In this document: in pieces, positions 16,768 through 31,272 of the stretch | How the letters are laid out: each line of letters begins with the position of its first letter | Position numbering within the stretch: position 1 is the first letter of the stretch | Assembly: GCA_027068415.1 (NCBI GenBank) | Contig: JAMOTD010000013.1 | Location: 1-38,695 of the forward strand | DNA from: Desulfurobacteriaceae bacterium | GTDB lineage: Bacteria; Aquificota; Aquificia; Desulfurobacteriales; Desulfurobacteriaceae | Direction of reading: 5' to 3' | Length of the DNA stretch: 38,695 nt | The notes under the pieces: generated by a model | Database searches by the model: none | What the model was told of the DNA's origin: nothing | The model's input: only the letters and a program-made list of their open reading frames with translations | Program-made: the position numbers and the translations under genes

Positions 16768-17458
16768 GGCCCTCTTAATTGACGGAGGGAATACGGCGGT
16801 TAAAATCGGGGAGCTCTCGGGAGAAAGGGTAGAGCTGATAGCCCGCCTTCCCACAGAAGAAGTAATAGAGAGGCCGGAGCTCCTTCTACAGAAAATAAAG
16901 GGTTTTAAAGGTAAGGTCGGAATCGCCTCGGTAGTTCCGGAGCTCTCAAAAGTCTTGAGGGAGCTCTTTCCCGAAGGGGAGTTTGTGGGACTGAGGGGGG
17001 AGCTCCCGGTAAAAATCCCCTACAAAGGGGAGATGGGGGCAGACAGGGTTGCAAACATTTTAGGGGGGAACTCCCTCTTTGAGAGCTTCATAATTGCGAG
17101 CCTCGGAACGGCAACGGTTATTGACGTGGTAGTTAACGGGGAGTTTAAAGGAGGTTTTATTCTGCCGGGAGCGAGGTTGATGGCAAGGAGTTTGAAAGAA
17201 GGTACCGCCCTCCTGCCGGAGGTGAAAAAGCTGCAAAACTTCCGGCCGGGGAACAAAACGAAAGAGTGCATTGAAGCGGGGATTTTAAGGGGAATCGGCG
17301 GTGCAATCTCTTCGGTTAGAAGTGAGTTTCCCGGACTGCCTCTAATTTTAACGGGAGGGGACGCCGGAGCGATCTACCCGTTAACCGGCGGAATTCTCGT
17401 TAAAGATTTAACTCTACTCGGAATAGGGGTATATCTTAAATATAAAGGGGGGAAGTAA
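16748..17458 (+). CDS. coaX: Type III pantothenate kinase
   Basis: Phosphorylates pantothenate in the first step of coenzyme A synthesis; an ASKHA-fold enzyme insensitive to CoA feedback. The 236 residues show the phosphate loop LLIDGGNTAVK (9-19), GADRVANILGG (97-107, with the catalytic Asp99) and the LGTATVIDVV strand. The ATG overlaps argJ by 20 bases. The stop codon lies inside a G6/C6 hairpin shared with the convergent cytochrome gene. Confidence 0.93.
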   Translation: MQSTELRALLIDGGNTAVKIGELSGERVELIARLPTEEVIERPELLLQKIKGFKGKVGIASVVPELSKVLRELFPEGEFVGLRGELPVKIPYKGEMGADRVANILGGNSLFESFIIASLGTATVIDVVVNGEFKGGFILPGARLMARSLKEGTALLPEVKKLQNFRPGNKTKECIEAGILRGIGGAISSVRSEFPGLPLILTGGDAGAIYPLTGGILVKDLTLLGIGVYLKYKGGK

Positions 17459-17475: not shown

Positions 17476-17727
17476 TTACTTGTAGAGCTCCTTGGCAGCA
17501 TCCTCAAGGGCTTTTACGTTGCTCTTGAAGGGAGCCATCATCGGGTTGGGAGACTTTTTCGCAGCTTCTACAAAAGCCTTTGCACTCTTAAACTTGGCCT
17601 TAAGCTGTGCTTTGCTGGGAGCGAGGCTTCCGTTGTGGCATCCCGCACACTGGGTTTCCCATACGCCTGCAGAAGCGGGGAGGGCAAAGAGAGCTGCAAG
17701 TGCGAGAGCACTTAAAACCTTCCTCAT
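17476..17727 (-). CDS. Small periplasmic monoheme cytochrome c
   Basis: Class I-like c-type cytochrome, 83 residues including a Sec signal peptide (MRKVLSALALAALFALPASA, cleavage after ASA). One heme site, CAGCH at about 27-31; the sixth ligand is probably a methionine in NPMMAPF. It lies just past napH but has its own promoter (17762-17790), so it can be expressed apart from the nap genes. A likely role is electron shuttling in the periplasm, possibly to NapA or to the octaheme proteins, since no napB exists here; this is inference from position. Confidence 0.88.
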   Translation of the reverse strand: MRKVLSALALAALFALPASAGVWETQCAGCHNGSLAPSKAQLKAKFKSAKAFVEAAKKSPNPMMAPFKSNVKALEDAAKELYK

Positions 17728-17761
17728 TTTCCTCTACCTCCTTACCGGATTTTCGCCTCTC

Positions 17762-17790
17762 AATTTATAACTTTTTCTTTAACAAGTCAA
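17762..17790 (-). promoter_or_regulatory. Promoter of the small cytochrome c gene
   Basis: On the minus strand TTGACT (17790-17785) is followed by TATAAA after 15 bases (17769-17764) or TAAATT after 17 (17767-17762), in an AT-rich gap after napH. AAGGAGG lies before the ATG at 17727. Confidence 0.55.
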
Positions 17791-17810
17791 ATAATTAAAT
17801 TAGTTTAATT

Positions 17811-18677
17811 TTATACCGCTGATTCACCCTTTGTCCCTTTGGGAAGGGTTATAAAGCCCCTGTCCCTCCAGACAAACTTAAGGGCAGAAGTAGGACAGGC
17901 GTCAACACACTCTGCACAGTTCCAGCAGTAAACGGTCTGGCTCTCCCCTACGCTGGGCTTAATCCCCATGGGGCAACGCTTGTCGCAGATTTTACAGCCA
18001 ACGCACTTTGAGGCGTTGTACTCAATGACAAGCTGCCTCTTCTTTCCTATGAGGGCAAGGAGAGCTCCAAGCGGACAGAAGTAGCGGCAGAACATTCTCC
18101 TCGTAATAAGGTTCATAAGGAGGACAACAACAACAATAACCGCCTCAATCGTTATGTGCTTGTAGAAGACGTAGAACATCGTCTCCCTACCCACAAGTCC
18201 GGGAGGAGACCACCAGACGAACATAGGGTAGCCGATAATCATAGTAATCATCAGCTCTGCAACGAGGGCGAACCAGAGGGTGTACTTGGCAAACCTTACC
18301 AAGTCCTTCCTGTACTTTAAATCCTTACCCCACTTGGGAATGAAACCGAGGATTTTATCGGTTAAGAGAGAGAGGAACTCTATGGGACACATCCAGCTAC
18401 AGAAGACCCGCCCCATCAAAAACGCAAGCGTAACGGGAATAACCATTCCCACCAAAGAGGGCATGTAGAAAAACTTCGCCGTAAGTATTGACTCAAGGCC
18501 TTCAAGGGGAGAAACGACCCAAAGATTACCTATACCTATAGACTGGAACCAACCCTGAATAAAGTTGATGTCCCAGTAGTAATTGGTGAAGGGGTTTCCT
18601 ATTACAACGATAAAACAGAGGGTCAGGAAGAGATAGCGCCACAGGGTTATCCTTTTAAAAAAGCTCTTCTTAGCCAC
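17811..18677 (-). CDS. napH: Quinol dehydrogenase ferredoxin subunit NapH
   Basis: Membrane component of the NapGH quinol dehydrogenase that can pass electrons from quinol toward periplasmic nitrate reductase. The 288-residue protein has about four to five transmembrane segments, two cytoplasmic-side CxxxCP motifs (CSWMCP near 93 and CRYFCP near 199) and two C-terminal 4Fe-4S sites (CVGCKICDKRCP and CWNCAECVDACP). The gene follows napG by 11 bases and is the last nap gene. Confidence 0.95.
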   Translation of the reverse strand: MAKKSFFKRITLWRYLFLTLCFIVVIGNPFTNYYWDINFIQGWFQSIGIGNLWVVSPLEGLESILTAKFFYMPSLVGMVIPVTLAFLMGRVFCSWMCPIEFLSLLTDKILGFIPKWGKDLKYRKDLVRFAKYTLWFALVAELMITMIIGYPMFVWWSPPGLVGRETMFYVFYKHITIEAVIVVVVLLMNLITRRMFCRYFCPLGALLALIGKKRQLVIEYNASKCVGCKICDKRCPMGIKPSVGESQTVYCWNCAECVDACPTSALKFVWRDRGFITLPKGTKGESAV

Positions 18678-18688
18678 AGCACCACCCC

Positions 18689-19366
18689 TTAGGATTTCTT
18701 AATGTCCTCAAGCTTAATCTCTTTAATTTTTTTCCACTTAATTGGCTGAATCACAATCGCCTTCTTGCCGTTATTCTCGGGGTAGGTATCGGCTATACAG
18801 GAGTAGGCACAGATTCCGCAGCCGGTACAGTACTCCTCAACGATGTAAGGCCTAAAGTCGTGGTCAATCTTAATTGCAACTCCCGAGAAGGGGCAGACGT
18901 TAAAGCAAGTTTTACACATAAGCCCTGTCTTATCCTGCTGCCAGCTGACGCATATCTGCCTGTTGATTACGGCAACACCCATTCTGACTTCTTCCTTGGC
19001 ACAGGGAACGAGAGAGCCGGTGGGACAAACATAAACACATTTCATACAGAGATAGCAAGGCTTTTCCATAACGTCAATGTAAGGCGTTCCCGAGAAAACC
19101 CCTCCGGTTTTAACGTCAAAGTACTTAATGCAGTGGTAAGGGCAGACCTCACCGCACCTTCCGCACCTAATACATTTCTGGGCAAAGTGCTCTTCGGAAA
19201 CGGCTCCGGGAGGCCTTAAGATGTTCGTCTTGATGGGGCTCTTAACCATAGTTTTCGGGTTTTTAAGGTCCGAAAGGGAGCAAGAGGAAAAGAGAGCTCC
19301 CCCCATAAAAGCGCCGAGAGTAACCTTTAAAAACTCTCTTCTGTCAGTTTTCCTTTCCCTCTTCAT
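18689..19366 (-). CDS. napG: Periplasmic ferredoxin-type protein NapG
   Basis: Tat-exported Fe-S protein, partner of NapH, 225 residues. The leader carries DRREFLK and a hydrophobic stretch ending near Ser-Ser-Cys. Four 4Fe-4S motifs are visible: CIRCGRCGEVCP, CYLCMKCVYVCP, a variant CKTCFNVCP preceded by CVSWQQDKTGLMC, and CTGCGICAYSCI. It overlaps napD by 23 bases, indicating coupling, and napH follows. Confidence 0.95.
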   Translation of the reverse strand: MKRERKTDRREFLKVTLGAFMGGALFSSCSLSDLKNPKTMVKSPIKTNILRPPGAVSEEHFAQKCIRCGRCGEVCPYHCIKYFDVKTGGVFSGTPYIDVMEKPCYLCMKCVYVCPTGSLVPCAKEEVRMGVAVINRQICVSWQQDKTGLMCKTCFNVCPFSGVAIKIDHDFRPYIVEEYCTGCGICAYSCIADTYPENNGKKAIVIQPIKWKKIKEIKLEDIKKS

Positions 19367-19712
19367 CGTCTTCTCCGAGCCACATTCTTTCGGCTTCCTT
19401 TTCGGCCTTCTTCAGGCCGTGGAACGGATTTCCGGGAACAATCTCTCCCTTCTCTATCTTTTCAAACTCGTCCAAGAAATGGGCCTCAACAACTGCAAGC
19501 TGAAGAACCCCGTCTATGCTCTTTATCTTTTTCTCAATCGCCTCAAGCTCTTCGTACCTTTCGGCATCCATAACGATTATTATGTAGTAGGCGTTCTCCT
19601 CCTTCTTTAGCTCTCCTCCGTAAACCTCTACTCCGGGTATCTCAAAAAGTTCCTTCTCAACCTGAAAGCCCTTCTCCGGCTCTGCAGTCACAACGCAGCT
19701 GACGATGGGCAT
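19344..19712 (-). CDS. napD: NapA maturation chaperone NapD
   Basis: Cytoplasmic ferredoxin-fold chaperone that binds the NapA twin-arginine leader and delays export until the Mo cofactor is inserted. The N-terminal MPIVSCVVTAEPEK and the VYGG/IDGVLQLAVVEAHFLDE pattern fit the family. At 122 residues it is longer than usual (about 85-95) because of an acidic C-terminal tail (GEDDEEGKEN end). The gene lies downstream of napA behind a strong hairpin and has its own -10 (19737-19732). Confidence 0.88.
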   Translation of the reverse strand: MPIVSCVVTAEPEKGFQVEKELFEIPGVEVYGGELKKEENAYYIIIVMDAERYEELEAIEKKIKSIDGVLQLAVVEAHFLDEFEKIEKGEIVPGNPFHGLKKAEKEAERMWLGEDDEEGKEN

Positions 19713-19731
19713 ATTTACCTCTCGGCATTAA

Positions 19732-19757
19732 ATTATATTCGGATTTTTGAATCAAAA
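19732..19757 (-). promoter_or_regulatory. napDGH promoter with palindromic operator candidate
   Basis: A perfect TATAAT on the minus strand (19737-19732) lies about 20 bases before napD. No consensus -35 is present; the spacer and -35 region instead contain a perfect inverted repeat TTTTGA-N-TCAAAA (19745-19757). That suggests a regulated promoter, but the site does not match the FNR (TTGAT-N4-ATCAA) or HcpR-like (TTGTGA-N6-TCACAA) patterns. Confidence 0.45.
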
Positions 19758-19764
19758 GTGGCAT

Positions 19765-19791
19765 AAGAAAAGCGGGGGCACAGGCCCCCGC
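19765..19791 (-). terminator. Strong hairpin between napA and napD
   Basis: GCGGGGGC and GCCCCCGC form a perfect 8-bp stem with a 4-base loop (19772-19791), followed on the minus strand by TTTTCTT. It should end or attenuate the napCMA transcript before napDGH. Confidence 0.75.
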
Positions 19792-19805
19792 AGGGAAAAG
19801 TCCAA

Positions 19806-22448
19806 TTACCTCTCGTTGGGGTCAAGCTCGGCGTTGTGGAGGTATCCGCCCCTGACCTTCTCAAGTTTAACGAGGAAGGACTTAAGGGGCTGAGCAGGAG
19901 CATACTTCTTGATGCGGCAAGCACAAATCTTGAACTCTGGCTGCTTGGAGCCGGGGTCAAAGGCATCAAGAGTACAGAAGTTAATCATCCTGCTCTTCTC
20001 CTGGTCGTACCAGTAGACGAAGACCATTCCCTCCATCGGACCTTCGTCGGTGGAGATACGTGCGGGAAGAATGTTCTTACCGCGGCGTGTCTCAACCAGA
20101 ACGAGGTCACCGGGCTGAATTCCGAGACGCTGAGCGTCCTTCGGGTTAATCTCAACCCAAGCGTAGGGATAGTCACCGGCAAGCTCAGGAATACGGCCAG
20201 TCATTGAAGCGGTATGCCAGTGATCAATAACCCTTCCGGTTGAGAGAACAAACGGGTACTCGGCATCTGGTGGCTCGGCAGGACCCTTGTAAGGCCTGAG
20301 CCAAATCCAGAACTTGTGGTCCTTGTGGAGATGACCGTAGTCAACAACCTTCCAATCTGTAAGCCCGTGTTTCTTAGCAAACTCTGTAGCAAGCGGGTCT
20401 TTACCTACGACAAACCTTCTGAGGGTTCCTCCCTTACGGGCAATTTCAACAGTAGGTGCAGGCCACTGAACGCCGTCGGGCCTTTCAAGGAGAACTTCAT
20501 AGGTAGCACCAGCAAGAGTGCTATCTCTTCCTTTTGTTACTTTCTGAGCGTACTCATGCCATACTTCCTTAGAGAGAGTCCACCAGGGGTCTTTCTTTGC
20601 AGCTTCAATAAAGGGAGCTACACACTGGTAAACTGCTGCAGCCCTTGCACGAAGTTTGGGGTCCCTCTCCCTCTTTAACTTCTTAGCGAGGACTTGAGCA
20701 AATTCAACAATCTGCCAGAGTTCAGGCATTGCCTGACCGGGAGCCTTAACGGCTTTTGGTGTTAGCTGTGAACGGCGCTCTGTACAGCCGTAAACACCGG
20801 TCTTTTCAAAGTGGAAGGCCGCAGGAAGGATTAGATTTGCAAACTCTGTCGTCCTCGTTGGGAAGATGTCGGTTACAACAACGAAGACATCATCTCTTGC
20901 AAAGCCCTCCCTGAACCTCTTCATGTTGGGAAGAGACTGGAGGGGTGAAGTTTCCTCAATCCAGATGAAGTGAATGGGTTTGAGTCCGGGGAACCTCTTC
21001 CTGTCCTCCTCAGTATAGGAGATAGCGGAGAACATCTTAACGGTGTGGTATCCGGGCTTGGGAGGAATTGTTCCTTTAGGAACACCCCAAATCTTCTCAA
21101 GCTGAGCCCTGTGCTTGGGATTCTTAACAACCCTGTGGCCGGGAAGGATGTGGCAGAGTCCACCACCTTCACGAACGCCACCGCAAGCGTTAGGCTGTCC
21201 TGTAAGTGAGAGGGCGTCTGCACCGTCCTTACAGATGTTTCCTGTTAAGAGGTGGAGGTTCGTAACGAGGTTGTTAACCCAAACACCGCGGGTCCTCTGG
21301 TTGAGACCCATCGTCCAGATAGAAACAGTTCTGGTTGTTGCAAAGCGCCTTGCAACCTTCCTGATAAGCTCGGGAGTGATGTTACCGCCGCAAATTTCGG
21401 CAGCGTACTCAGGAGTGTACTTCTCAAGAAATCTCTTGTACTCTTCAAAGGAGACCTCATGTCCGATGAGAGGGTTCTTATCCTTACCCTTGGTGTAGAT
21501 GTGGAATGAGCAGTACTTGCTTACAAACTCCTTGTCGTAGAGACCCTCCTTAACGATTACGTGAGCCATTGCGTTGAGGAGGGCAAGGTCTGTACCGGGC
21601 TTAAATTGCATGTGGATGTCTGCAATCTTGGAAGTGGGTGAAACCCTCGGGTCAACGTTAATTACCATATAACCGCCAGGGTTGGCAAGCTTATTTTTCA
21701 TAATACGGCGGTAGAGAATCGGGTGGCACTCTGCGGTGTTTGAACCGATGATAAAGACTGTTTGAGCCTTATCAAAGTCAGCATAACCGCCTGCAGGCTC
21801 GTCGGTTCCGAAGGAGGTGAGGTATCCCCCAACCGCAGATGCCATACAAAGCCTCGGGTTTCCTTCGACGTGGTTGGTACCGATGCACCTAAAGAGCTTT
21901 TGGAAGAGGTATGTCTCTTCAGTTAAAGCCTGACCAGAACCGTAGTAGGCAATTCCCGACCAGCCGAAGGGAGTCCATTCGCCCTTCTTGATGGCCTTAA
22001 TCATTTCGTCGGCCATTATGTCAAAGGCCTTCTCCCAAGAGATGGGCTTAAAGGGCTCATCCTTGCTCTTCCTGTAAAGGGGCTGGGTAAGCCTGTCGGG
22101 ATGCCTGAAGATTTTGTAAAAGAGCATTCCCTTCATACAGAGGAAACCGAAGTTAATTTGTGAATTCTTCTCACCGCGGATAATTGCAGGTTTACCGTTC
22201 CTCAGACCAAGCCATACTTTACAACCAGTTCCACAGAAACGGCAAACTCCCCTTACCCACTCAATATTTCCTTCTTTCTTATAAGCAGGGGAACGCTTTA
22301 CTTCTTCGGGAATTTGAGCAAGGTTTTCACCGGCAGAAGCCTCAACGGGTGCAATACCATCCGCCTTTATCTTAAGATTAACTCCCACAAGGGAGGCTGC
22401 TGTTAAAGCTGCACTTTTCTTAAGGAAGTCTCTCCTTCCGATTCCCAT
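19806..22448 (-). CDS. napA: Periplasmic nitrate reductase catalytic subunit NapA
   Basis: Reduces nitrate to nitrite with a Mo-bis-MGD cofactor and one 4Fe-4S cluster; exported by Tat. The 880-residue precursor has a twin-arginine leader (GRRDFLKK at 4-11), cluster cysteines Cys69, Cys72, Cys76 and Cys104 (CRFCGTGC; FLCMKG) and the probable Mo-ligand Cys201 (GNPRLCMASAVGGY). The C-terminal molydopterin dinucleotide-binding domain ends near KKYAPAQPLKSF. A KKP-type basic patch of other NapA families was not checked. It is preceded by napM (23 bases) and napC and followed by a terminator. Confidence 0.97.
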   Translation of the reverse strand: MGIGRRDFLKKSAALTAASLVGVNLKIKADGIAPVEASAGENLAQIPEEVKRSPAYKKEGNIEWVRGVCRFCGTGCKVWLGLRNGKPAIIRGEKNSQINFGFLCMKGMLFYKIFRHPDRLTQPLYRKSKDEPFKPISWEKAFDIMADEMIKAIKKGEWTPFGWSGIAYYGSGQALTEETYLFQKLFRCIGTNHVEGNPRLCMASAVGGYLTSFGTDEPAGGYADFDKAQTVFIIGSNTAECHPILYRRIMKNKLANPGGYMVINVDPRVSPTSKIADIHMQFKPGTDLALLNAMAHVIVKEGLYDKEFVSKYCSFHIYTKGKDKNPLIGHEVSFEEYKRFLEKYTPEYAAEICGGNITPELIRKVARRFATTRTVSIWTMGLNQRTRGVWVNNLVTNLHLLTGNICKDGADALSLTGQPNACGGVREGGGLCHILPGHRVVKNPKHRAQLEKIWGVPKGTIPPKPGYHTVKMFSAISYTEEDRKRFPGLKPIHFIWIEETSPLQSLPNMKRFREGFARDDVFVVVTDIFPTRTTEFANLILPAAFHFEKTGVYGCTERRSQLTPKAVKAPGQAMPELWQIVEFAQVLAKKLKRERDPKLRARAAAVYQCVAPFIEAAKKDPWWTLSKEVWHEYAQKVTKGRDSTLAGATYEVLLERPDGVQWPAPTVEIARKGGTLRRFVVGKDPLATEFAKKHGLTDWKVVDYGHLHKDHKFWIWLRPYKGPAEPPDAEYPFVLSTGRVIDHWHTASMTGRIPELAGDYPYAWVEINPKDAQRLGIQPGDLVLVETRRGKNILPARISTDEGPMEGMVFVYWYDQEKSRMINFCTLDAFDPGSKQPEFKICACRIKKYAPAQPLKSFLVKLEKVRGGYLHNAELDPNER

Positions 22449-22471
22449 CGTGCCCTCCTATTACAAGGTTA

Positions 22472-22888
22472 TTAGTACTGAGCCGGGTTAAAGTCTTTAG
22501 CTGTCTTTATATTCTTTACACCTTCTCCATGGAACTGGAATACGTGCTCTTGATGACAATCCCAACACTTCATACCAGGCTTTTTCTTCTGCATAGTTTC
22601 CACTTCGTGGAAGTGGCAAGCCATACACTTCTCTATAGGCGGAGTTTTGTGGAAGTCCTCAAGGGTTCCGTGGCACTGGAAACACCTTACGTTAGCAACT
22701 GCGTGCCTTGAGCGAGCCCACTCTTTGTAAACTTTGGGAGTAGTCTGCTGGTGGCAAACTCTACACTGCTGCTGCTGAGGTGGAAGCTTTGCTATTACAT
22801 TAGGTGGTAAAGGGTGCTGGTCAGCCATCGCTACACCGCTTCCTACAAGGAACAATCCCGCAAAAAGCGATAGTGTTTTTACCTTCAC
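22472..22888 (-). CDS. napM: Tetraheme cytochrome c NapM
   Basis: Periplasmic multiheme cytochrome thought to carry electrons from NapC to NapA in clusters that lack NapB. I place the start at GTG 22888, which has GGGGAGG 6 bases upstream; a TTG at 22903 would lie before that ribosome site and is unlikely. The 138-residue product has a Sec signal (to about residue 22, VAMA) and four heme sites: CRVCH 42-46, CFQCH 69-73, CMACH 88-92 and CWDCH 108-112, with extra histidines for bis-His ligation. It lies between napC and napA. Confidence 0.9.
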   Translation of the reverse strand: MKVKTLSLFAGLFLVGSGVAMADQHPLPPNVIAKLPPQQQQCRVCHQQTTPKVYKEWARSRHAVANVRCFQCHGTLEDFHKTPPIEKCMACHFHEVETMQKKKPGMKCWDCHQEHVFQFHGEGVKNIKTAKDFNPAQY

Positions 22889-22918
22889 TTTGCACCTCCC
22901 CAAGATGTTGTTTTAAGG

Positions 22919-23473
22919 CTACTCATAGCCTTTCTCTCCCTCTTTCTTACCGAAGAACTCCTTTAGTTTCTCCTCAAAGTCAAAACCATGACCTACGTAC
23001 CAGTGGCAGTTAAGGCAGTTCCCCTCAATTTCCCCAAGTTTAATCTTCTCATGCATAACGTTGTCTGGAAGCTGTATATGACAGTGGGTACAGTTTGTAA
23101 TGAAAACGTAGTGATCCCTCTCCTTCCTCTTCTCAATCCAGTGCTCAAGGTCGTCTGAATAACCACCTTTAAAGAAGTGACCAAACCCATCTTGAATTCC
23201 AAATTTAGCCTTGTTTACTAAATATGATATTACATTATCATGCGGTAAATGGCAATCGGCGCAACTGGCTCTAACAGCCCCTCTTCTGTTTCCAAGTGGA
23301 CCGTGGGGTCCCTTTTCCCAGGCTTCGTACATCGGTTTCATCTCATGGCAGGAACTACAGAATTCAATCTCTGCAGTATTCTCAATCATCTGAGCTGAGA
23401 TGAGAGCCCCTACCCCGGCAATTACGATTCCGACTATTCCTCCTACTATGAAGGCCTTCGTCTTCTCAGTCAC
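22919..23473 (-). CDS. napC: NapC/NirT-family tetraheme quinol dehydrogenase
   Basis: Membrane-anchored cytochrome that oxidises quinol and passes electrons to periplasmic reductases. The 184-residue protein has one N-terminal transmembrane helix (about 8-29) and four heme sites: CSSCH 39-43, CADCH 71-75, CTHCH 128-132 and CLNCH 153-157. NrfH, a close relative, is the alternative; the napM-napA context favours NapC, though it might also feed the octaheme proteins encoded upstream. It is the first nap gene, with a promoter at 23521-23549. Confidence 0.92.
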   Translation of the reverse strand: MTEKTKAFIVGGIVGIVIAGVGALISAQMIENTAEIEFCSSCHEMKPMYEAWEKGPHGPLGNRRGAVRASCADCHLPHDNVISYLVNKAKFGIQDGFGHFFKGGYSDDLEHWIEKRKERDHYVFITNCTHCHIQLPDNVMHEKIKLGEIEGNCLNCHWYVGHGFDFEEKLKEFFGKKEGEKGYE

Positions 23474-23520
23474 CTCAACCTCCTAACCCAAATATTCAAA
23501 ATTCATTATTGAGCTCTAAT

Positions 23521-23549
23521 ATTTTATCATCATCTTGATGATTCTTCAA
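23521..23549 (-). promoter_or_regulatory. Promoter of napC-napM-napA with an inverted repeat in the spacer
   Basis: On the minus strand TTGAAG (23549-23544), a 17-base spacer and TAAAAT (23526-23521). The spacer contains the inverted repeat ATCATC-N2-GATGAT (23529-23542), which would lie under RNA polymerase and is a plausible repressor site. Nearby TTGAT and ATCAA half-sites (23535-23557) are 13 bases apart, too far for a standard FNR box. Confidence 0.5.
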
Positions 23550-23570
23550 GTTATCAATAAAAATCTAAAC

Positions 23571-24068
23571 TTAATAGTCCTCATCACGAAAATATCTCTG
23601 GAGCTCTCTAACCTCCTTACCTGAAGGATTAATTGAGAGCATATTTGAGTAGCACTTAAAAGCACTGTCGTAATCCCCCTTATTTATGTACCCTTTTGCG
23701 GCTTTATAGTAGTACTTGTAAGCATCCTTTCTCTCCTCTTTTGCGTCAAGAACAACGGCCTTTATGTAGTTGTAGCGGGGGTCGTCAGGAGAGCAGTACC
23801 TGGCAGCTTCTTTTACTTCGTCAGAGGCCGAGTCGTAATCGGAAGCCGTTATGTACTGGTCGGCAAAGAGAAGGTGGCGGGTACAGGGGTCAACCTTTTT
23901 CACATCAACGGGGAGAGTTATCGGGAGTTCCTGAGACCGAGCTCCCTCAAGTTTCCTATCAAGGGCGGTTTTGGGAGGAGACGAAGGAGTATAGGTTCCT
24001 TGGTTAACCTTACCCCCCGTAGCACAGGAGGCAAGAAGGAGGGGGATTAAGAGCAAGCCTTTACGCAT
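23571..24068 (-). CDS. TPR-containing lipoprotein
   Basis: Not a named family. The 165-residue precursor has a lipoprotein signal (MRKGLLLIPLLLASC, lipid Cys15), a proline/serine-rich linker, and two or three TPR-like helical pairs (about 75-150; YYYKAAKGYINKGDYDSAFK and the following NMLSINPSG). It overlaps the upstream TPR gene by 8 bases and precedes the napC promoter. It may anchor or assemble the periplasmic cytochromes at a membrane; this comes only from the neighbourhood. Confidence 0.7.
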   Translation of the reverse strand: MRKGLLLIPLLLASCATGGKVNQGTYTPSSPPKTALDRKLEGARSQELPITLPVDVKKVDPCTRHLLFADQYITASDYDSASDEVKEAARYCSPDDPRYNYIKAVVLDAKEERKDAYKYYYKAAKGYINKGDYDSAFKCYSNMLSINPSGKEVRELQRYFRDEDY

Positions 24069-24969
24069 CGCTTTTACCCTTTCTCTTAAGGAGCTTTAAG
24101 TACTTTGAGGAGGGGTTCATAAGCTCCAGTTTCTTAACGACCTCTTTGTAACCTTCAATGTCCCCTTCTTTCTTCAGAATTAAGGCGGCCTTGTAGTAGG
24201 CCTCCTCGGCCGCCTGAGAGGTCTCGGGCATGCTTTCGGAGAGAGCTCCGCTGTAAAGGTTCCCCAATTGATAGTAGGCAAGTGCGTTTTCCGGGTCTAC
24301 CTCAACTGCCTTTTGGAGCTCAGTAAAGGCCATCCTCAAGTACTCAAGCCTCTTCCTGTCCTGCTCCTCAGCAGCCCTTTGGGCTTTAGCCATAAGCTCG
24401 TCAAGCTCCTTCTCGCTTACCCCCATCTTCTTTAAGAGCTCGTTATACCTTTTAAGCTTCTTTTCGTCCATCTGGTCGGGGAAGAGCCTCTTCATACTGT
24501 AGAGGGCCATAAGCTCGTTAATTTGAACGAAGTCAAACCCCCTCTTCTGGAGCTTCTCAATGAAAGGTTTGTAAATTTCTTTCTCGCTTGAGTCGTCAAT
24601 GTTTATACTCTTTTTGTAGTAGAGCATTCCCAAAAGCATGTGAAGGTCTGAAGCGACCTTATAGACGTGGGGGTCTCTCAGTTTTGCGTTTTTCTGCTGA
24701 GCGTTAGGAACTATAGTTTTAGGATTTTTCTTTAAAAGGGGCTCTATCTCCTTCAAGGCCTTCTTTGCTTTCTCAATTCCCTCATCGTACTTGTGGTTGT
24801 GGTAATCACGGTAGATGCAGTAGAAGTAGAGGGGAGGGTTTTGTAGGAAGTCTGTCGGGCACTTTATCTTTTTTTCAATCTCTTTTTCGTAAGTTGCACT
24901 TTTTGATAGAGCTAAAGAGGGTGTTAAAAGGATTAGGGATATTAAGAGAGCCAAGATTTTCTTTTTCAA
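24061..24969 (-). CDS. Periplasmic TPR-repeat protein
   Basis: Unknown function, 302 residues. Sec signal peptide (MKKKILALLISLILLTPSLALS), a long helical middle, and TPR units near residues 210-290 (AFTELQKAVEVDPENALAYY; then EEAYYKAALILKKEGDIEGY). The start is TTG (24969) with AGGAGG 5 bases upstream. It lies 25 bases past the terminator of octaheme gene 1 and no separate promoter fits in that space, so its expression probably depends on read-through. It overlaps the lipoprotein gene. Confidence 0.75.
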   Translation of the reverse strand: MKKKILALLISLILLTPSLALSKSATYEKEIEKKIKCPTDFLQNPPLYFYCIYRDYHNHKYDEGIEKAKKALKEIEPLLKKNPKTIVPNAQQKNAKLRDPHVYKVASDLHMLLGMLYYKKSINIDDSSEKEIYKPFIEKLQKRGFDFVQINELMALYSMKRLFPDQMDEKKLKRYNELLKKMGVSEKELDELMAKAQRAAEEQDRKRLEYLRMAFTELQKAVEVDPENALAYYQLGNLYSGALSESMPETSQAAEEAYYKAALILKKEGDIEGYKEVVKKLELMNPSSKYLKLLKRKGKSDA

Positions 24970-24993
24970 GATTTCCTCCTAAGGGGGAATAGT

Positions 24994-25019
24994 AAAAAGG
25001 GGGAGGAAGAACCTCCCCC
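24994..25019 (-). terminator. Terminator of octaheme cytochrome gene 1
   Basis: Minus-strand stem GGGGGAGG/CCTCCCCC (8 bp, loop TTCTT) followed by TTTTT (24998-24994), starting a few bases past the stop codon at 25026. A canonical strong intrinsic terminator. Confidence 0.85.
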
Positions 25020-25025
25020 GATAGG

Positions 25026-26402
25026 TTACTGAGCAGACTGACCGTAACGCTTAGCGTAGAAGGCAGCAATCTTCCTGAGCTCTTCCTTGTTAAACTCGTG
25101 GAACCACTTGTGGTAGGGATTGGCAAAGAGTTTCTTCTTGAACTCCTCCCACTGCTTCTTAACTCGCCTGTTGCCCTTCTCCTCAACGAGCTTGTCGGCT
25201 TCAGGAAGGAGCTTGAAGTAGAAGTTGTAAGCAACTTCAAAGAGACCGTGCCAGTGGGTCCAGTCAGGAGCCATCATAGAAGCACCGTGCCTTGCCCTAC
25301 GACCTTCGTGATGCCAGAGGAGGAAGTACTCCCACTCAATCTTCTGGTTAAACGGAATCGGGTCAATAACCTTGTTCTTCCTGAGGAACTTCATGACTTG
25401 TGCGGCAGGCTTAGCAAACTTCTCGTTGTAGAGCTCAACGAGGTTGTCAAACTGGTAATAGAACGCGTCAACCCAGAGCTTCTGGTGGCAAGCGGCACAG
25501 ACCTTCTTCATCTCGGCACGCTTGGCCTGCCAGTTCTCCTTGTGCTTAGAGACAGGCGGCCTGAGGGTCCAGGAGAGCCTTGCTCCAACGTCGTGGGTTG
25601 CCTTAGCACCGGTCACAGTAGCACCCATGTGGCAGGTTACACAGTTGGGAGCCTGGTAGTAGTCCTCACCGAGAACCCACTTAGCCTTGTCAAGGGTCTG
25701 CTCAATTTCAGACTGGTGAGCCTTGTAGGCAATACCGTGCTTACTGAGCTCCCAGATTTCAATCTGTGGATGGTCGGGACCCTGGTGACACTTACCACAC
25801 ATGTCGGGCTCACGAACCTGCTTGAGGCTGAAGCTGTGCCTGAAGTGGCAAGCTGCACAGTTTCCGAGTGAGCCGTCGGGGTTAACCCTTCCGATACCCT
25901 CGTTGGGCCACGGTCCCATGATGGGAAGACCGTTCTTAACGGGAATTGTACGGCCGTGACACTGCGCACAGCCGAGGTTGAAGAGGGCCTCACCCTCAAC
26001 AATCCTTCCGAGAACGTTGTCAAGAGAACCTACGAACTGAGCAGCCTTTGCGTGGTGGGACTCGGTAACTTCCTTCATCTCCTTGGGGTGACACTTACCA
26101 CAGTCAAGGGGTGAAACGATTGTGGAGATTGTGAAGCCGAAGTGCTGGAAGGCGTCCTTCTCGCCTTTGTTGGCCATGTGACACTCGTAACAGCCAACAC
26201 CTGCCTCAGCGTGCTTGCTAATTCCCCACTGCTGAACGAGAGCAGGGTTCATTCCCTTGTGACAGCCAAGGCACGCCTGAGACTCCTTAGAGATGTTCCT
26301 GAGGGCTGCGCCGGCATCGGTAGTATTAAGACCAATTACTGCTACTGCAGCAAAGGTAGCCGCCAGCAGCCCTGTGCGAAGCTTGCTGAGCTTCCCCTTC
26401 AT
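25026..26402 (-). CDS. hao: Octaheme cytochrome c 1, hydroxylamine oxidoreductase family (reductive type)
   Basis: Periplasmic multiheme enzyme of the HAO family. I use ATG 26402 (AAGGAGGAG upstream), giving 458 residues; a start at 26441 would precede the promoter. Signal peptide ends near DAGA (28-31). Eight CxxCH sites start at residues 44, 71, 101, 145, 182, 202, 254 and 302. The C-terminal helical part carries WHHEGRRARHGASMMAPDWT near 364-383. In Nautilia and Campylobacter, such proteins are linked to nitrite or hydroxylamine reduction (reverse HURM) rather than ammonia oxidation. No CxxCK site exists, so it is not NrfA. Its own promoter and terminator make it monocistronic apart from read-through to the TPR genes. 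Confidence 0.88.
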   Translation of the reverse strand: MKGKLSKLRTGLLAATFAAVAVIGLNTTDAGAALRNISKESQACLGCHKGMNPALVQQWGISKHAEAGVGCYECHMANKGEKDAFQHFGFTISTIVSPLDCGKCHPKEMKEVTESHHAKAAQFVGSLDNVLGRIVEGEALFNLGCAQCHGRTIPVKNGLPIMGPWPNEGIGRVNPDGSLGNCAACHFRHSFSLKQVREPDMCGKCHQGPDHPQIEIWELSKHGIAYKAHQSEIEQTLDKAKWVLGEDYYQAPNCVTCHMGATVTGAKATHDVGARLSWTLRPPVSKHKENWQAKRAEMKKVCAACHQKLWVDAFYYQFDNLVELYNEKFAKPAAQVMKFLRKNKVIDPIPFNQKIEWEYFLLWHHEGRRARHGASMMAPDWTHWHGLFEVAYNFYFKLLPEADKLVEEKGNRRVKKQWEEFKKKLFANPYHKWFHEFNKEELRKIAAFYAKRYGQSAQ

Positions 26403-26441
26403 ACTCTCCTCCTTGCTTAAAGAGTTTTTTCTAAGATACAC

Positions 26442-26469
26442 ATTATAATCAAACTTTCACAACTTGCAA
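26442..26469 (-). promoter_or_regulatory. Promoter of octaheme cytochrome gene 1
   Basis: On the minus strand TTGCAA (26469-26464), 16-base spacer, perfect TATAAT (26447-26442). The predicted start is about 33 bases before the ATG. A single TTGTGA half-site lies in the spacer; no full dyad is evident. Confidence 0.65.
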
Positions 26470-26549
26470 GATTATTCAAACAAAATTCTCGTTCTTATTT
26501 ATTAGCATATATTCAGGTATTCTTATTATAAAACAATTCGCAACAGGTC

Positions 26550-27053
26550 TCATTTTACCAAAACTTTTATCCTATGTTTTGCCCTCAACTTCTCTATAAG
26601 AGTCTCATAGGCCTGACGCCTTTTCTGAGAAAGAAGCTCTGCATAAGCTCTATTCTCACTTATATGTTTCTGCTCAGCAAGCTGTTTAACTTCTTCCTTA
26701 GAAATTGTTATTTTGCCACTTATCTCCTTTGATAGGTAAGCTATAATGTAAGCTGCATCTTTATCCATTCCTACATGGGCATTAAAAGAGCCTTCTCGGG
26801 ATGAAACGCTTTTCTTTGCCTCCTCAAGAATTATCTGCCGATCAATGTAATAACCGAGCAGTTTTTTAAGCCCCTGATTAGTGGTGAGCATCTTTTTATA
26901 CTTTTCTCCCGGAAGGAGCTCTACGTAGGACTTTAAATCTGAATAAGTTATAGGCTTTCCATCCAAATAAGCCAGTACTCTATCCTTCTCCTCTCCGTAA
27001 ACCGTAGAACCCACAAAGACAAAAACCAAGAAAATCAAAGTTAAAAACCTCAT
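26550..27053 (-). CDS. SurA_N-type periplasmic chaperone without a PPIase domain
   Basis: Residues 1-20 form a Sec signal; residues 27-80 match the SurA/PpiC N-terminal chaperone region (VLAYLDGKPITYSDLKSYVE, then LKKLLGYYIDRQIILEEAKK). The remaining helical part (to residue 167) closes that fold, but the parvulin domain of SurA or PrsA is missing. It lies between the two octaheme cytochrome genes, behind the terminator of gene 2, with its own GGAAGGA ribosome site but no obvious promoter. It may assist folding or heme attachment of the octaheme proteins; this is inference from position. Confidence 0.7.
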   Translation of the reverse strand: MRFLTLIFLVFVFVGSTVYGEEKDRVLAYLDGKPITYSDLKSYVELLPGEKYKKMLTTNQGLKKLLGYYIDRQIILEEAKKSVSSREGSFNAHVGMDKDAAYIIAYLSKEISGKITISKEEVKQLAEQKHISENRAYAELLSQKRRQAYETLIEKLRAKHRIKVLVK

Positions 27054-27091
27054 TCCTTCCTCCCGAACTGCTAAAAATTTAGGCCAAAATG

Positions 27092-27120
27092 AAAAAAGGG
27101 GGGAGTAAAACTCCCCCCTT
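27092..27120 (-). terminator. Terminator of octaheme cytochrome gene 2
   Basis: Perfect 10-bp stem AAGGGGGGAG/CTCCCCCCTT with a 5-base loop (27096-27120), followed on the minus strand by TTTTTT. The strongest intrinsic terminator in the window. Confidence 0.9.
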
Positions 27121-27142
27121 AGAATGAATGAGAAAGCTCAGC

Positions 27143-28765
27143 TTATTTCTCTCCTGCCTCAAAGAGGGTTGGCGTTCCGGCATCGTCAAGCAGATGGATA
27201 GCCTGATAGAGCGGACTGTTGGGGTTCTTAGCATTAAGCTCGGCCTTCTTACGCTTCTTGTAAGCTTCAAATACAGGGTTGTGACCGAACTTCTTGCCGA
27301 GGTACTTATCGCGGTTGTTGTACCTCTCAAGCCACCTCTGCCACTCCTCATCGCTGAGCCAACCCTTCTTATAGGCGGCCTCAACGTTCTTTTTAACCAT
27401 CTCCCAGTACTTGTCACCAAGGAGCTTGTAGGCCATTGGTGTCTCGTACATCTCAGATGTAACGATTGACCAAACGTTGCCGGGGAAGTCATAAACCCTG
27501 TAGGGGAAGAACTTGAGGGGTGACTTGCTCTCCCAAATCTTCTTGGCCTCAGGAATTCCATTCTCGGCAAGGTAATGGATTGTTTCCATAAGGTCGTACT
27601 GGAGCTCCCAGATACCGTGCCACTGGGTGTAGTCGGCCGCCATCATCTCGGCACCCATCCTGAATCTACGACCTTCATGGTGCCAGCCGTGGTACATAGC
27701 TTTAGCAGGTTGAGGTACCCAACCACCGTTTATAACCTTCTTAAGCTTTTCAGGTATCTTAACGGGGTTAAAGATATCACCGTACTTCTTGGGATTCTTC
27801 TCTGCGTACTTCTTAGCAAGGTTGTTCCAGTAAACGAACTGCCTCCTCAACTCGTTGTATTGAAGGTTAACAAGGTCCATCTGGAGGAAGTAGTCGGTTA
27901 CGAAGTTGGGGGAGTGACAGTTCTTACATACTGCTTCCATTCTTTGACGCTTAACTTTCCAGTCGCCGAGCTTCTCCTTAAACCAGATTGTCCTGTAAGA
28001 CCAAGGAGCCTGAGATTCCCAAGCAAGCCTTGCACTTACGTTGTGGGTTCCCTCAACACCGGGAGCGGCGTCCATGTGGCAGGTTGTACACGTAGGAACG
28101 GGAATCGGAATTCCTGCCTGTGAAGACTTGTAGCCGAGGTCCCACTCCTTGTAGTGGGTCATGAAGATGTTTCCGTGCTTAGACTCAAGGTATTCCTCAA
28201 TGTGAGGATGGTCTGGTCCGATGTGACACTCACCACAGGTGTAGGGGTTCCTTGCAACCGCAATGTCAAATGTGTGTTTGGGGTGGCAGGCATCACACTC
28301 ACCTACGCTGCCGTCCCAGTGGAGAGCAGTAATGTTGTGGCACTGCTCACAGCCAGCCTTTGTTGCAACAATAGGCTCCCAAATAGCCCTGTCGGCATTT
28401 GCATAGAGCCAGAAGGGATAGGCGTGCTTACTTTCTGTAAACTCCTTAACCTCTTTGGGGTGACACATAGAACAATCTTTAGGAGTCGGGTGGCTTGCAA
28501 CAATGGGACCGCCCGGACACTGGAAGGCATCTCCATCGTTGGCCGAAGCCCTGTGACAGATTGCACAACCTACACCCATTTTAGCGTGTTTACTCTGGGC
28601 CCACTGCTCAATAACCTTTGGTGCTACTCCCTTTTTCAGGTGACACTCAACACAACCTTCAGAGGACTTAGGTACCTCCACACCGTTTACGGTAAGAGCA
28701 TAGGATGAAGCCCCAAGGATAACGGTGAGGAGGCAGGCCTTCAAGGCCATTCTGAGTCCCTTCAT
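27143..28765 (-). CDS. hao: Octaheme cytochrome c 2, hydroxylamine oxidoreductase family
   Basis: Paralogue of the 25026-26402 product, sharing its heme spacing and many segments (CHPKEVKEFTESKHA; GPDHPHIEEYLESKHG; WHHEGRRFRMGAEMMAADYT). I use ATG 28765 (AAGGAGGG upstream), 540 residues. Signal peptide to about residue 23. Eight CxxCH sites begin at 38, 67, 98, 139, 157, 177, 226 and 280. Compared with protein 1 it has about 80 more residues, mainly at the C-terminus. In the shared motif it has Tyr379 where protein 1 has Trp381. Likely a periplasmic nitrite or hydroxylamine reductase; which paralogue does which is unknown. First gene of the respiratory region, promoter near 28809. Confidence 0.88.
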   Translation of the reverse strand: MKGLRMALKACLLTVILGASSYALTVNGVEVPKSSEGCVECHLKKGVAPKVIEQWAQSKHAKMGVGCAICHRASANDGDAFQCPGGPIVASHPTPKDCSMCHPKEVKEFTESKHAYPFWLYANADRAIWEPIVATKAGCEQCHNITALHWDGSVGECDACHPKHTFDIAVARNPYTCGECHIGPDHPHIEEYLESKHGNIFMTHYKEWDLGYKSSQAGIPIPVPTCTTCHMDAAPGVEGTHNVSARLAWESQAPWSYRTIWFKEKLGDWKVKRQRMEAVCKNCHSPNFVTDYFLQMDLVNLQYNELRRQFVYWNNLAKKYAEKNPKKYGDIFNPVKIPEKLKKVINGGWVPQPAKAMYHGWHHEGRRFRMGAEMMAADYTQWHGIWELQYDLMETIHYLAENGIPEAKKIWESKSPLKFFPYRVYDFPGNVWSIVTSEMYETPMAYKLLGDKYWEMVKKNVEAAYKKGWLSDEEWQRWLERYNNRDKYLGKKFGHNPVFEAYKKRKKAELNAKNPNSPLYQAIHLLDDAGTPTLFEAGEK

Positions 28766-28977: not shown

Positions 28978-29889
28978 ATGGAAGTAATTAAATTTAAATA
29001 CCCAGATACAGAAAAGATGGGCCTTGCAAAGGGAGAGACAGGAGAGCTCCCTCACGGCAAAGAGGTCGTGGTAAAGACGGAAAGGGGCCTTGAGCTCGTT
29101 AAGGTTTTAAAAACCTACAGGGTGGAGCCCGAAACTCTGAGTAAGTTCGGCCTCAAAGAGGAGGAGCTTTACACCCTCGTAAGGGAGGCAACGGAGGAGG
29201 ACAAAAACCGATTTCTCTCAAACCTCCTCTTTGCAGAGGAAGCCCTTGAGGTGTGTAGGGAGAAGGTTGAAAAGCACGGCCTTGAGATGAAGCTGGTAAA
29301 GGCCTACACAACCTTAAAGAAGGAGAGAATCGTCTTTTACTTTACGGCGAAGAACAGGGTTGACTTCAGACAGCTGGTAAGGGACCTGGCCGCCCACTTC
29401 AGGACGAGGATAGAGCTCCGCCAAATCGGAGTAAGGGACGAGGTAAAGATGCTCGGGGCGGTAGGGATGTGCGGAAGGGTATGCTGCTGTAAGGACTTTA
29501 TTGACTGCTTCCAGTCAATTTCCCTAAACCTTGCAAAGCTTCAGGGGCTCCCCCCTAACCCTGCAAAGCTCTCGGGAACCTGCGGAAGGCTCATGTGTTG
29601 CCTCAAGTTTGAGGAAGCCAACTACTTCGTAAGGCAGTTTTTACCCGAAGCGGGACAAGAGGTTGAAACTCCCGAAGGCAAGGGAAAGGTCGTTGACGTT
29701 AACGTTCTCCTTGAGAAGTTAACAGTTGAACTTGAAGAAGGGAGGAAAGTTGACTTCCCCATACAGGCCTTTTTAACAAAGGAGCAGTGGGAGGAATACA
29801 TTAACAGACTGAAAGAGAGAGCAGATGACAGATTCAGCTGCTTTACAAAAGCGGGAGTAATAGGAGATGAGAGTAGTCAAAAGTCTTAA
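28978..29889 (+). CDS. ricT: PSP1/RicT-family protein
   Basis: Homologue of Bacillus RicT (YaaT), a 4Fe-4S-containing member of the Ric complex that affects RNase Y-dependent mRNA maturation. The 303 residues have the cysteine-rich core GAVGMCGRVCCCKDF (about 160-174) and SGTCGRLMCCLKFEE (about 200-214), family hallmarks. A GAAGGAG site precedes the ATG. RicQ and RicF partners are not in the window. It is the first gene of the operon that ends with tmk and holB, a neighbourhood also seen in Bacillus. Confidence 0.9.
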   Translation: MEVIKFKYPDTEKMGLAKGETGELPHGKEVVVKTERGLELVKVLKTYRVEPETLSKFGLKEEELYTLVREATEEDKNRFLSNLLFAEEALEVCREKVEKHGLEMKLVKAYTTLKKERIVFYFTAKNRVDFRQLVRDLAAHFRTRIELRQIGVRDEVKMLGAVGMCGRVCCCKDFIDCFQSISLNLAKLQGLPPNPAKLSGTCGRLMCCLKFEEANYFVRQFLPEAGQEVETPEGKGKVVDVNVLLEKLTVELEEGRKVDFPIQAFLTKEQWEEYINRLKERADDRFSCFTKAGVIGDESSQKS

Positions 29890-30676
29890 GAGCCCACTAA
29901 ACAGGCTCTTCATATACGAAACAGACGACGGCTACAGGGTTGAGAGCGTCTTCTACAAGGGAGAGAGGCTCTGCGTCTCCTCACAGGTAGGCTGCCCGGT
30001 AAGGTGTGCCTTTTGCGCCTCGGGAATGTTCGGACTAAAAAGGAGCTTAAAGGCAGAGGAGATTTTTGCCCAGTACGGGCTGCTAAAGGGGGAGCTCCCT
30101 GTAAAGGGAGTTGCCATAGCCGGAATAGGCGAGCCCTCGGCAAATGCAGATGAGGTTATAAAGGCCATAAAGCTCTTCAAGGAGGAGGGGCTGAAGGTAA
30201 CCGTAAGTACGACCGGCTACCCCTTAGAGGGTTTTAAGAAGCTGATGAGAGCTCCCCACGACGGCCTGACCATTTCGGTTCACGGAATATCGGAAGAGGT
30301 AAGGAAGAGGGTTTTCGGCGTAGAGATACCCCTAACCGAAGTTCTGAAAGCCCTTGAGGAGTACTTTAAAGAGGCCTCTTCCTCAAGGAGGAAGAAGTTC
30401 CAGCTGGGCTACCTATTAATAAAAGGATTAAACGACAGCAGGCAGGAGCTCCAGAAATTGGGGGAGCTTGCAAAGAGGTATAGGATGACCGTAATGCTCA
30501 TGGCCTACAACGAGGTTGAGGGAATACCCCTTAAGGGGTTAACCGAAGAGGAGTACGAGAAGGCCTTTTTAACCTTAAGGGAGATGGGAGTGAGGGTCAC
30601 CCTCTCAAACAGGTTCAGAAGGGATAAGCTTGGAGGTTGCGGAACCCTAACAATAGCAAGGGAGGTTGAGAGATGA
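29867..30676 (+). CDS. RlmN/Cfr-like radical SAM methyltransferase, short form
   Basis: Radical SAM enzyme related to RlmN (C2 methylation of A2503 in 23S rRNA and A37 in tRNA). Cys43, Cys47 and Cys50 (CPVRCAFC) bind the cluster; the two mechanistic cysteines of RlmN/Cfr are also present, Cys36 (LCVSSQ) and Cys258 (GGCGTLTIA). At 269 residues it lacks the roughly 90-residue N-terminal accessory domain of RlmN, so its RNA target may differ. The gene overlaps ricT by 23 bases; TAGGAG abuts the ATG, so a GGGAG at 29853 may be the ribosome site. Its end overlaps the next gene (ATGA). Confidence 0.85.
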   Translation: MRVVKSLKSPLNRLFIYETDDGYRVESVFYKGERLCVSSQVGCPVRCAFCASGMFGLKRSLKAEEIFAQYGLLKGELPVKGVAIAGIGEPSANADEVIKAIKLFKEEGLKVTVSTTGYPLEGFKKLMRAPHDGLTISVHGISEEVRKRVFGVEIPLTEVLKALEEYFKEASSSRRKKFQLGYLLIKGLNDSRQELQKLGELAKRYRMTVMLMAYNEVEGIPLKGLTEEEYEKAFLTLREMGVRVTLSNRFRRDKLGGCGTLTIAREVER

Positions 30677-31272
30677 GGGGAGCTCTGGCGCTCCTTGTAG
30701 CACTCCTCTTAACGGGCTGCACCCATCAGGAGAAACCATTAACACAGAAAGAGAGGGAGAGGGCGGCCTCAATCGGCCAGATGGCGGTAAAGAGGTTAAT
30801 GGGAGAGCTTAAGACGAACCTCGGAACGGCCTTAAAGGAAGGGGGATTTCCCAAAGCGATAGAGTTCTGTGCGGGAAAGGCCGAAGAGCTTACGGCAAAG
30901 GTTAACAAAGAGCTGGTGGTAGTAAGGGTAAAGAGGGTTTCGGATAAGTACCGGAACCCCAAAAACAGGCCCGACAAGCTTGACCTCGCAGTTATAAAGG
31001 AGTTTAAAGAGAAGCTGAAGGAGGGGAAACTGCCTCCTTACGAAATCAAGAGGATTAAGCTAAACGGGAAAGAGTACCTCGTTTACTACAAGCCGATACT
31101 GGTAGCTCCTTTTTGTCTTAACTGCCACGGAGAGCCTACGAGAATGAACCCGGAAGTTCTAAGGGTAATAAAGGAGAAGTACCCTCAAGACAGAGCTCTC
31201 GGCTACAGGGCCGGCCAGCTCAGGGGAGTCTTTAAAGTTCTCATACCCGAAGAAGAGGTTAAGGGAGGTTAG
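30673..31272 (+). CDS. DUF3365 (Tll0287-like) c-heme lipoprotein
   Basis: The 199-residue product has a lipoprotein signal (LLVALLLTGC, lipid Cys16) and one heme site CLNCH (about 152-156) in the typical DUF3365 context KPILVAPFCLNCHGEP. Related proteins have a PAS-like fold with one c-type heme and are thought to sense redox or oxygen. It overlaps the rlmN-like gene by ATGA and lies 2 bases before the khtT-like gene, tying an extracytoplasmic heme protein to a K+ efflux module. Function unproven. Confidence 0.85.
   Translation: MRGALALLVALLLTGCTHQEKPLTQKERERAASIGQMAVKRLMGELKTNLGTALKEGGFPKAIEFCAGKAEELTAKVNKELVVVRVKRVSDKYRNPKNRPDKLDLAVIKEFKEKLKEGKLPPYEIKRIKLNGKEYLVYYKPILVAPFCLNCHGEPTRMNPEVLRVIKEKYPQDRALGYRAGQLRGVFKVLIPEEEVKGG

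Follow-up and report, generated by a model that had tools for sequence, protein, structure and literature searches.

A predicted nitrate-to-ammonium operon in Desulfurobacteriaceae that pairs two octaheme cytochromes with separate sets of exported partner proteins

We analysed a 38,695-nucleotide stretch of DNA (the window) from the genome of a Desulfurobacteriaceae bacterium, a member of the Thermovibrio group from a deep-sea vent (GCA_027068415.1, contig JAMOTD010000013.1), in which a minus-strand operon of 12 genes runs from position 28765 to 17476. The operon encodes two octaheme cytochromes of the hydroxylamine oxidoreductase (HAO) family (HAO1 and HAO2), a short protein with only a SurA_N domain between them, two tetratricopeptide repeat (TPR) proteins (one lipidated), NapCMADGH and a monoheme cytochrome, which confirms the gene content given by an initial annotation made from the sequence. 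Given the divergent gene upstream (PSP1, at 28978) and the convergent gene downstream (at 17458), the operon is complete within the window. HAO1 with the SurA_N-only protein is referred to below as cassette A, and HAO2 with the TPR pair as cassette B; the HAO1 coordinates assume an ATG start at 28765, although the longest frame extends to 28801. The features are as follows.

27143..28765, minus strand: HAO1, exported octaheme cytochrome c of predicted reductive HAO type, cassette A enzyme (eight CxxCH motifs; Pfam Multi-haem_cyto, 1.2e-22)
27096..27120, minus strand: terminator-like hairpin and T tail directly 3′ of HAO1
26550..27053, minus strand: SurA_N-only exported protein of 167 amino acids, HAO1 partner (SurA_N_3, 7e-6)
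25026..26402, minus strand: HAO2, octaheme cytochrome c of predicted reductive HAO type, cassette B enzyme (eight CxxCH motifs; Multi-haem_cyto, 3.2e-23)
24999..25019, minus strand: terminator-like hairpin and T tail directly 3′ of HAO2 (position kept in 8/8 genomes)
24061..24969, minus strand: TPR2, exported TPR protein, HAO2 partner (TPR_11, 6.7e-8; Sec-type N terminus)
23571..24068, minus strand: TPR lipoprotein, HAO2 partner, overlapping TPR2 by 8 bases (TPR_2, 3.6e-5; lipobox LLASC read from the sequence)
22919..23473, minus strand: NapC/NrfH-type tetraheme quinol dehydrogenase, proposed electron donor of HAO2 (Cytochrom_NNT, 8.5e-23)
22472..22903, minus strand: NapM tetraheme cytochrome (four CxxCH motifs; Cytochrome_C7)
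19806..22448, minus strand: NapA periplasmic nitrate reductase with twin-arginine signal (627 bits against the NapA model PRK13532)
19772..19791, minus strand: terminator-like hairpin and T tail directly 3′ of napA (position kept in 8/8 genomes)
19344..19712, minus strand: NapD chaperone (NapD, 4e-11)
18689..19366, minus strand: NapG ferredoxin (Fe–S motifs in the sequence; conserved position)
17811..18677, minus strand: NapH membrane ferredoxin (Fer4_5, 1.1e-15)
17476..17727, minus strand: monoheme cytochrome c, last gene of the operon (one CxxCH motif; Cytochrome_CBB3, 2.7e-5)

Both octahemes combine eight CxxCH motifs with homology to the HAO family (HAO1 matches HAO and IhOCC structures in the Protein Data Bank), and alignment to HAO structures showed that both retain the Asp–His pair, which we take to be catalytic in HAO. 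Each also has an invariant Trp (W382 in HAO1, W384 in HAO2) with a Met eight residues earlier (M374 and M376), positions that were assigned by motif match rather than by alignment to the C terminus of N. europaea HAO. According to PMC8940962, the Campylobacterota-type Hao (Haase et al.) is marked by a Trp where oxidative HAO has its cross-link Tyr, together with a Met at −8, and PMC9213671 states that Hao from Campylobacterota forms ammonium from nitrite in vitro. Judged by these residues, HAO1 and HAO2 both carry the signature of a reductive, non-cross-linked HAO. No CxxCK haem occurs in the window, as first noted—the sole CxxCK (CVGCK, in NapH) is part of a 4Fe–4S motif.

The two octahemes (approximately 36% identity) had been called paralogues, a loose term, as each represents a deep lineage with its own relatives in other phyla. 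HAO1 forms a clade (support 100/99; 57–61% identity) with SurA_N-linked HAOs that were found through SurA_N alone, and the HAOs of four Nitrospirota TPR2 loci fall inside the HAO2 clade (100/100). A grouping of HAO1 with the 560-amino-acid HAO of two other genomes (G128 and G129) involved long branches and was not relied on. The 97% identity of HAO1 between the source genome (G000) and a relative (G130), compared with 90% for NapA, had suggested a recent transfer of HAO1; this was rejected, given that third-codon divergence in HAO1 (0.27) is similar to that in HAO2 (0.30), and stronger purifying selection is therefore enough to explain the high identity.

Enzymes that could take over the nitrite step were searched for in the source genome and 21 further Desulfurobacteriaceae genomes (22 in total). 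There was no match above cut-off in these genomes to NrfA (PF02335; E. coli control positive), to the nitrite/sulfite reductase domain NIR_SIR (controls positive in 11 of 14) or to Hcp (TIGR01703; control genomes positive), and octaheme tetrathionate reductase was absent from the source genome. A prismane match (PF03063) is present in every family genome and was considered as a possible Hcp hydroxylamine sink, but all three loci examined score as anaerobic CO dehydrogenase (CooS), including the single match of the source genome (724 bits on TIGR01702 versus 58 on TIGR01703). The view of the locus as a nitrate-to-ammonia module without NrfA is thus upheld, neither nrfA nor hcp being found above cut-off in the source genome, and the reported lack of a hydroxylamine reductase in the window extends to whole genomes. 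One of the 22 genomes (G133) is that of Thermovibrio ammonificans HB-1 (the first 5,000 bases of its first contig are identical to plasmid pTHEAM01), a proven nitrate ammonifier in which genome analysis left the nitrite step unsettled (PMC5441870). It encodes a single HAO, namely HAO2, beside nap, and lacks HAO1.

The arrangement HAO2–TPR2–TPR lipoprotein–napC–napM is kept in 14 family genomes, with napA next wherever the contig or stretch extends that far. Within the family, HAO1 and SurA_N are confined to G000 and G130, where they take up the same operon position. A genome of a sister family (G114) has the order HAO–TPR–TPR–HAO–napCMADGH, both HAOs being HAO2-type. The accessory genes proved to be linked to hao in Aquificota, Desulfobacterota and Nitrospirota, which removes an objection anticipated by the initial annotation, that these genes might have no conserved linkage. 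A profile of the SurA_N protein gave short-frame matches in 12 of 395 Desulfobacterota genomes, and at all eight checkable loci (8 genomes) the gene lies directly 3′ of an HAO gene with eight haem motifs, from which a single small monoheme gene separates it at some loci. Three further genomes (G396, G514 and G533) have SurA_N starting no more than approximately 360 bases from the end of a contig, and an HAO that reaches another contig end or stops within approximately 320 bases of it, consistent with a contig break at the SurA_N/HAO junction. In the reverse search, HAO1-type HAOs gave strong matches in 12 of the 395 genomes, clearly separated from the next best (278 bits), and the two genes occur together in 11 genomes (Fisher p = 1.8e-19, only a guide, as a row of the SurA_N query came from G136 itself and genomes that are related do not count independently). 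The twelfth genome with a SurA_N match, G136, seemed at first to hold a SurA_N–HAO pair (L082; G136:C91, 6-868); this was rejected and counted as NrfA-linked, since the gene immediately follows the 3′ end of nrfA and precedes an HAO2-like gene. This locus suggests that SurA_N-only proteins may also serve NrfA. In place of Nap, the Desulfobacterota HAO1 cassette has as its neighbours a type-II DMSO-reductase-family Mo enzyme, an ExtP-like cytochrome b and a monoheme cytochrome, and the HAO1–SurA_N cluster of G166 includes a true Hcp (L204:14255-15958, 836 bits).

TPR2 follows the other octaheme. Its profile had four full-length matches in 396 Nitrospirota genomes (one of which, G150, supplied a query row), each directly after an HAO2-type HAO and before a TPR lipoprotein; the cassette was rejected as a general one, with only two weak partial matches in the 395 Desulfobacterota genomes. 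HAO1 with SurA_N and HAO2 with two TPR proteins are separate cassettes and not one common helper set. The AlphaFold2 model of the SurA_N protein (pLDDT 86) has a SurA-type N-terminal chaperone fold, with SurA chains of solved BAM–SurA complexes as the best Foldseek match (E = 2.7e-5), and neither the model nor the domain matches include the parvulin peptidyl-prolyl isomerase (PPIase) domain; the Pfam score is just below the curated cut-off in the window protein and above it in the Desulfobacterota relatives. TPR2 was modelled as a helical-repeat protein (pLDDT 88), its fold and profile searches gave generic TPR matches only, and no homology of the TPR proteins to NrfG or CcmI was detected.

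A hairpin with a T tail lies 3′ of every HAO1, HAO2 and napA gene (18/18 gene ends in eight genomes) and at none of 44 other internal gene ends, counts that reflect thresholds chosen after viewing the window and eight genomes that are related. The gene after napA encodes NapD, a known chaperone. By analogy with NapD, SurA_N and TPR2 may be assembly factors made at lower amount, which the hairpins after the catalytic genes would fit.

NapGH and NapM feed NapA, which forms nitrite. The set of genes and their conserved arrangement are firmly established. From these, together with the phylogeny, the signature residues, the lack of rival enzymes above cut-off and the hairpin positions, we consider it probable that the operon encodes a full periplasmic module for respiration of nitrate to ammonium. 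The NapC/NrfH-type cytochrome would draw electrons from the quinol pool and hand them to HAO2; it scores 83.6 bits on the NrfH model and 43.4 on the NapC/NirT model (both under cut-off), and NapC-type genes also lie directly 3′ of HAO in genomes with no nap gene found nearby. We infer that electrons pass to HAO2 through NapC and to NapA through NapGH. HAO2 with NapC is the likely nitrite-to-ammonia reductase, in which HAO2 would carry out the six-electron reduction with no release of hydroxylamine. HAO1 is probably a second, dispensable reductive octaheme, gained in the source lineage with its own partner and acting as a parallel nitrite/hydroxylamine reductase. A role of the SurA_N and TPR partners in octaheme assembly is likely by analogy: the former may act as a periplasmic holdase dedicated to apo-HAO1, and the TPR pair as a client-specific factor for assembly of HAO2 or for its tethering to the outer membrane, with the hairpin after each catalytic gene, given its conserved position, keeping the downstream chaperones (SurA_N, TPR2 and NapD) at lower dose. 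More tentatively, and with rather less confidence than in the module itself, we propose the combined claim that reductive octahemes have dedicated exported assembly factors (a PPIase-less SurA for HAO1, the TPR pair for HAO2) and that HAO2 alone accomplishes full six-electron nitrite reduction in Desulfurobacteriaceae.

The initial annotation had the octahemes splitting or sharing the six-electron step. A division of labour, with hydroxylamine made from nitrite by one octaheme and reduced to ammonium by the other, would suit the presence of HAOs of two distinct types in a single operon, with no Hcp to take hydroxylamine, and G114 also has two HAOs, placed around the TPR pair. However, these are both HAO2-type, the HAO2–TPR–nap operon is far more widespread in the family than HAO1 (14 genomes versus 2 of 22), and T. 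ammonificans ammonifies with HAO2 alone; because this organism carries HAO2 and not HAO1, the split loses support, and we regard it as improbable. Somewhat less improbable, but still unlikely in our judgement, is that HAO1 serves another substrate or purpose (detoxification of NO or hydroxylamine, or reduction of another oxyanion) and came into the operon only by transfer. The non-Nap surroundings of the Desulfobacterota HAO1 cassette would fit this, as would the proposal of sulfur compounds as HAO-family substrates (PMC9213671), whereas the Hcp in the G166 cluster points to nitrogen oxides, and HAO1 shares the active-site signature residues of HAO2 and sits inside a nap operon. The least credible alternative assigns nitrite reduction to an unrelated enzyme and only electron transfer to the octahemes: a putative NirA (Theam_1000) named for T. 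ammonificans was detected in its proteome (PMC5441870), yet no genome of the family, that of T. ammonificans included, has a NIR_SIR domain above cut-off, and both HAOs retain the Asp–His pair. The lack of this domain in G133 conflicts with the published NirA assignment.

Several points weigh against reading the operon as a nitrate-to-ammonium module with client-specific partners. Its function is predicted from its genes; IhOCC, the solved structure with the best score, is an octaheme whose function is unproven; members of the HAO family are found as well in organisms without a link to nitrogen, and sulfur reduction has been proposed for them (PMC9213671); and the Mo enzyme beside the examined Desulfobacterota HAO1 cassette is not clearly a nitrate reductase. 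In addition, G124 has an HAO2-type gene with napC but without the TPR pair or adjacent nap genes, and in G128 and G129 nap occurs with another HAO type (adjoining napCMADGH in G128), again without the TPR pair; the TPR proteins are therefore not required by every HAO.

Known or proposed cases of Nap with HAO but no NrfA are those of Nautilia (PMC3701875), Deferribacter (PMC6896113) and Thermosulfurimonas (PMC5276818), all of which have Hcp; the new element here is the partner cassettes. The reverse hydroxylamine:ubiquinone reductase module (reverse-HURM) of Nautilia profundicola (Nap, HaoA, CycB/NapC and Hcp) shares Nap, a reductive HAO, a NapC-type quinol dehydrogenase and the lack of NrfA with our operon, which has the NapC/CycB-type gene beside HAO; by contrast, no Hcp/Har was found in the 22 genomes, two HAO types are present, and SurA_N or TPR partners are not described in Nautilia. 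The Epsilon-Hao of Campylobacterota (Haase et al. 2017), compared by description rather than by sequence, shares the Trp and the Met at −8 and reportedly forms ammonium from nitrite, and seems to differ in accessory genes. The nap–hao–hcp cluster of Deferribacter autotrophicus has napMADGH with a single hao and no NrfA, but differs in having Hcp, a decaheme cytochrome and Otr. In the 11-gene Nap/Hao cluster of Thermosulfurimonas dismutans, two periplasmic proteins whose function is unknown, and which may correspond to the TPR pair, lie between an HAO-like cytochrome and napMADGH; this organism differs in lacking NapC, with an NrfD-type membrane protein and with a genome that encodes Hcp and Otr. 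NrfG/CcmI, to which homology was not detected, are TPR chaperones of the periplasm that hold a nitrite reductase in its apo form (PMC12285233), and the SurA_N protein shares the SurA fold but lacks the PPIase domain and is tied to one client gene. We found no description of SurA_N or TPR partners of HAO in the open-access literature.

Among vent autotrophs, T. ammonificans and its relatives branch deeply and respire nitrate to ammonium, and HAO2 is here named as the candidate for their nitrite step where NrfA, sirohaem reductase and Hcp are lacking, so that hydroxylamine need not be a free intermediate. Two small families of unknown role receive a specific proposed job, as each tracks one octaheme reductase type across phyla; dedicated octaheme assembly factors, if real, would add to the biogenesis of multihaem cytochromes a layer that goes beyond the general Ccm/Ccs systems.

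HAO and napA-like Mo enzymes also share contigs elsewhere, often adjacent or one gene downstream (L076, L086, L090, L112, L121, L123 and L124), and the wider Nap–HAO linkage spans Myxococcota, Planctomycetota, Gammaproteobacteria, Cloacimonadota and Bacteroidales; Grimontia celer (L095) has two HAO copies close together, identical in the tree. Outside the operon, the window encodes a putative lipoprotein (30673-31272, plus strand) that carries a Tll0287-like domain and a single CxxCH motif, and a one-haem open reading frame occupies the equivalent place near the operon in several relatives of the source genome. This lipoprotein is possibly a haem sensor for the octaheme system; a Tll0287-like domain fused to a histidine kinase lies beside an HAO1 cassette (L204:2846-4528).

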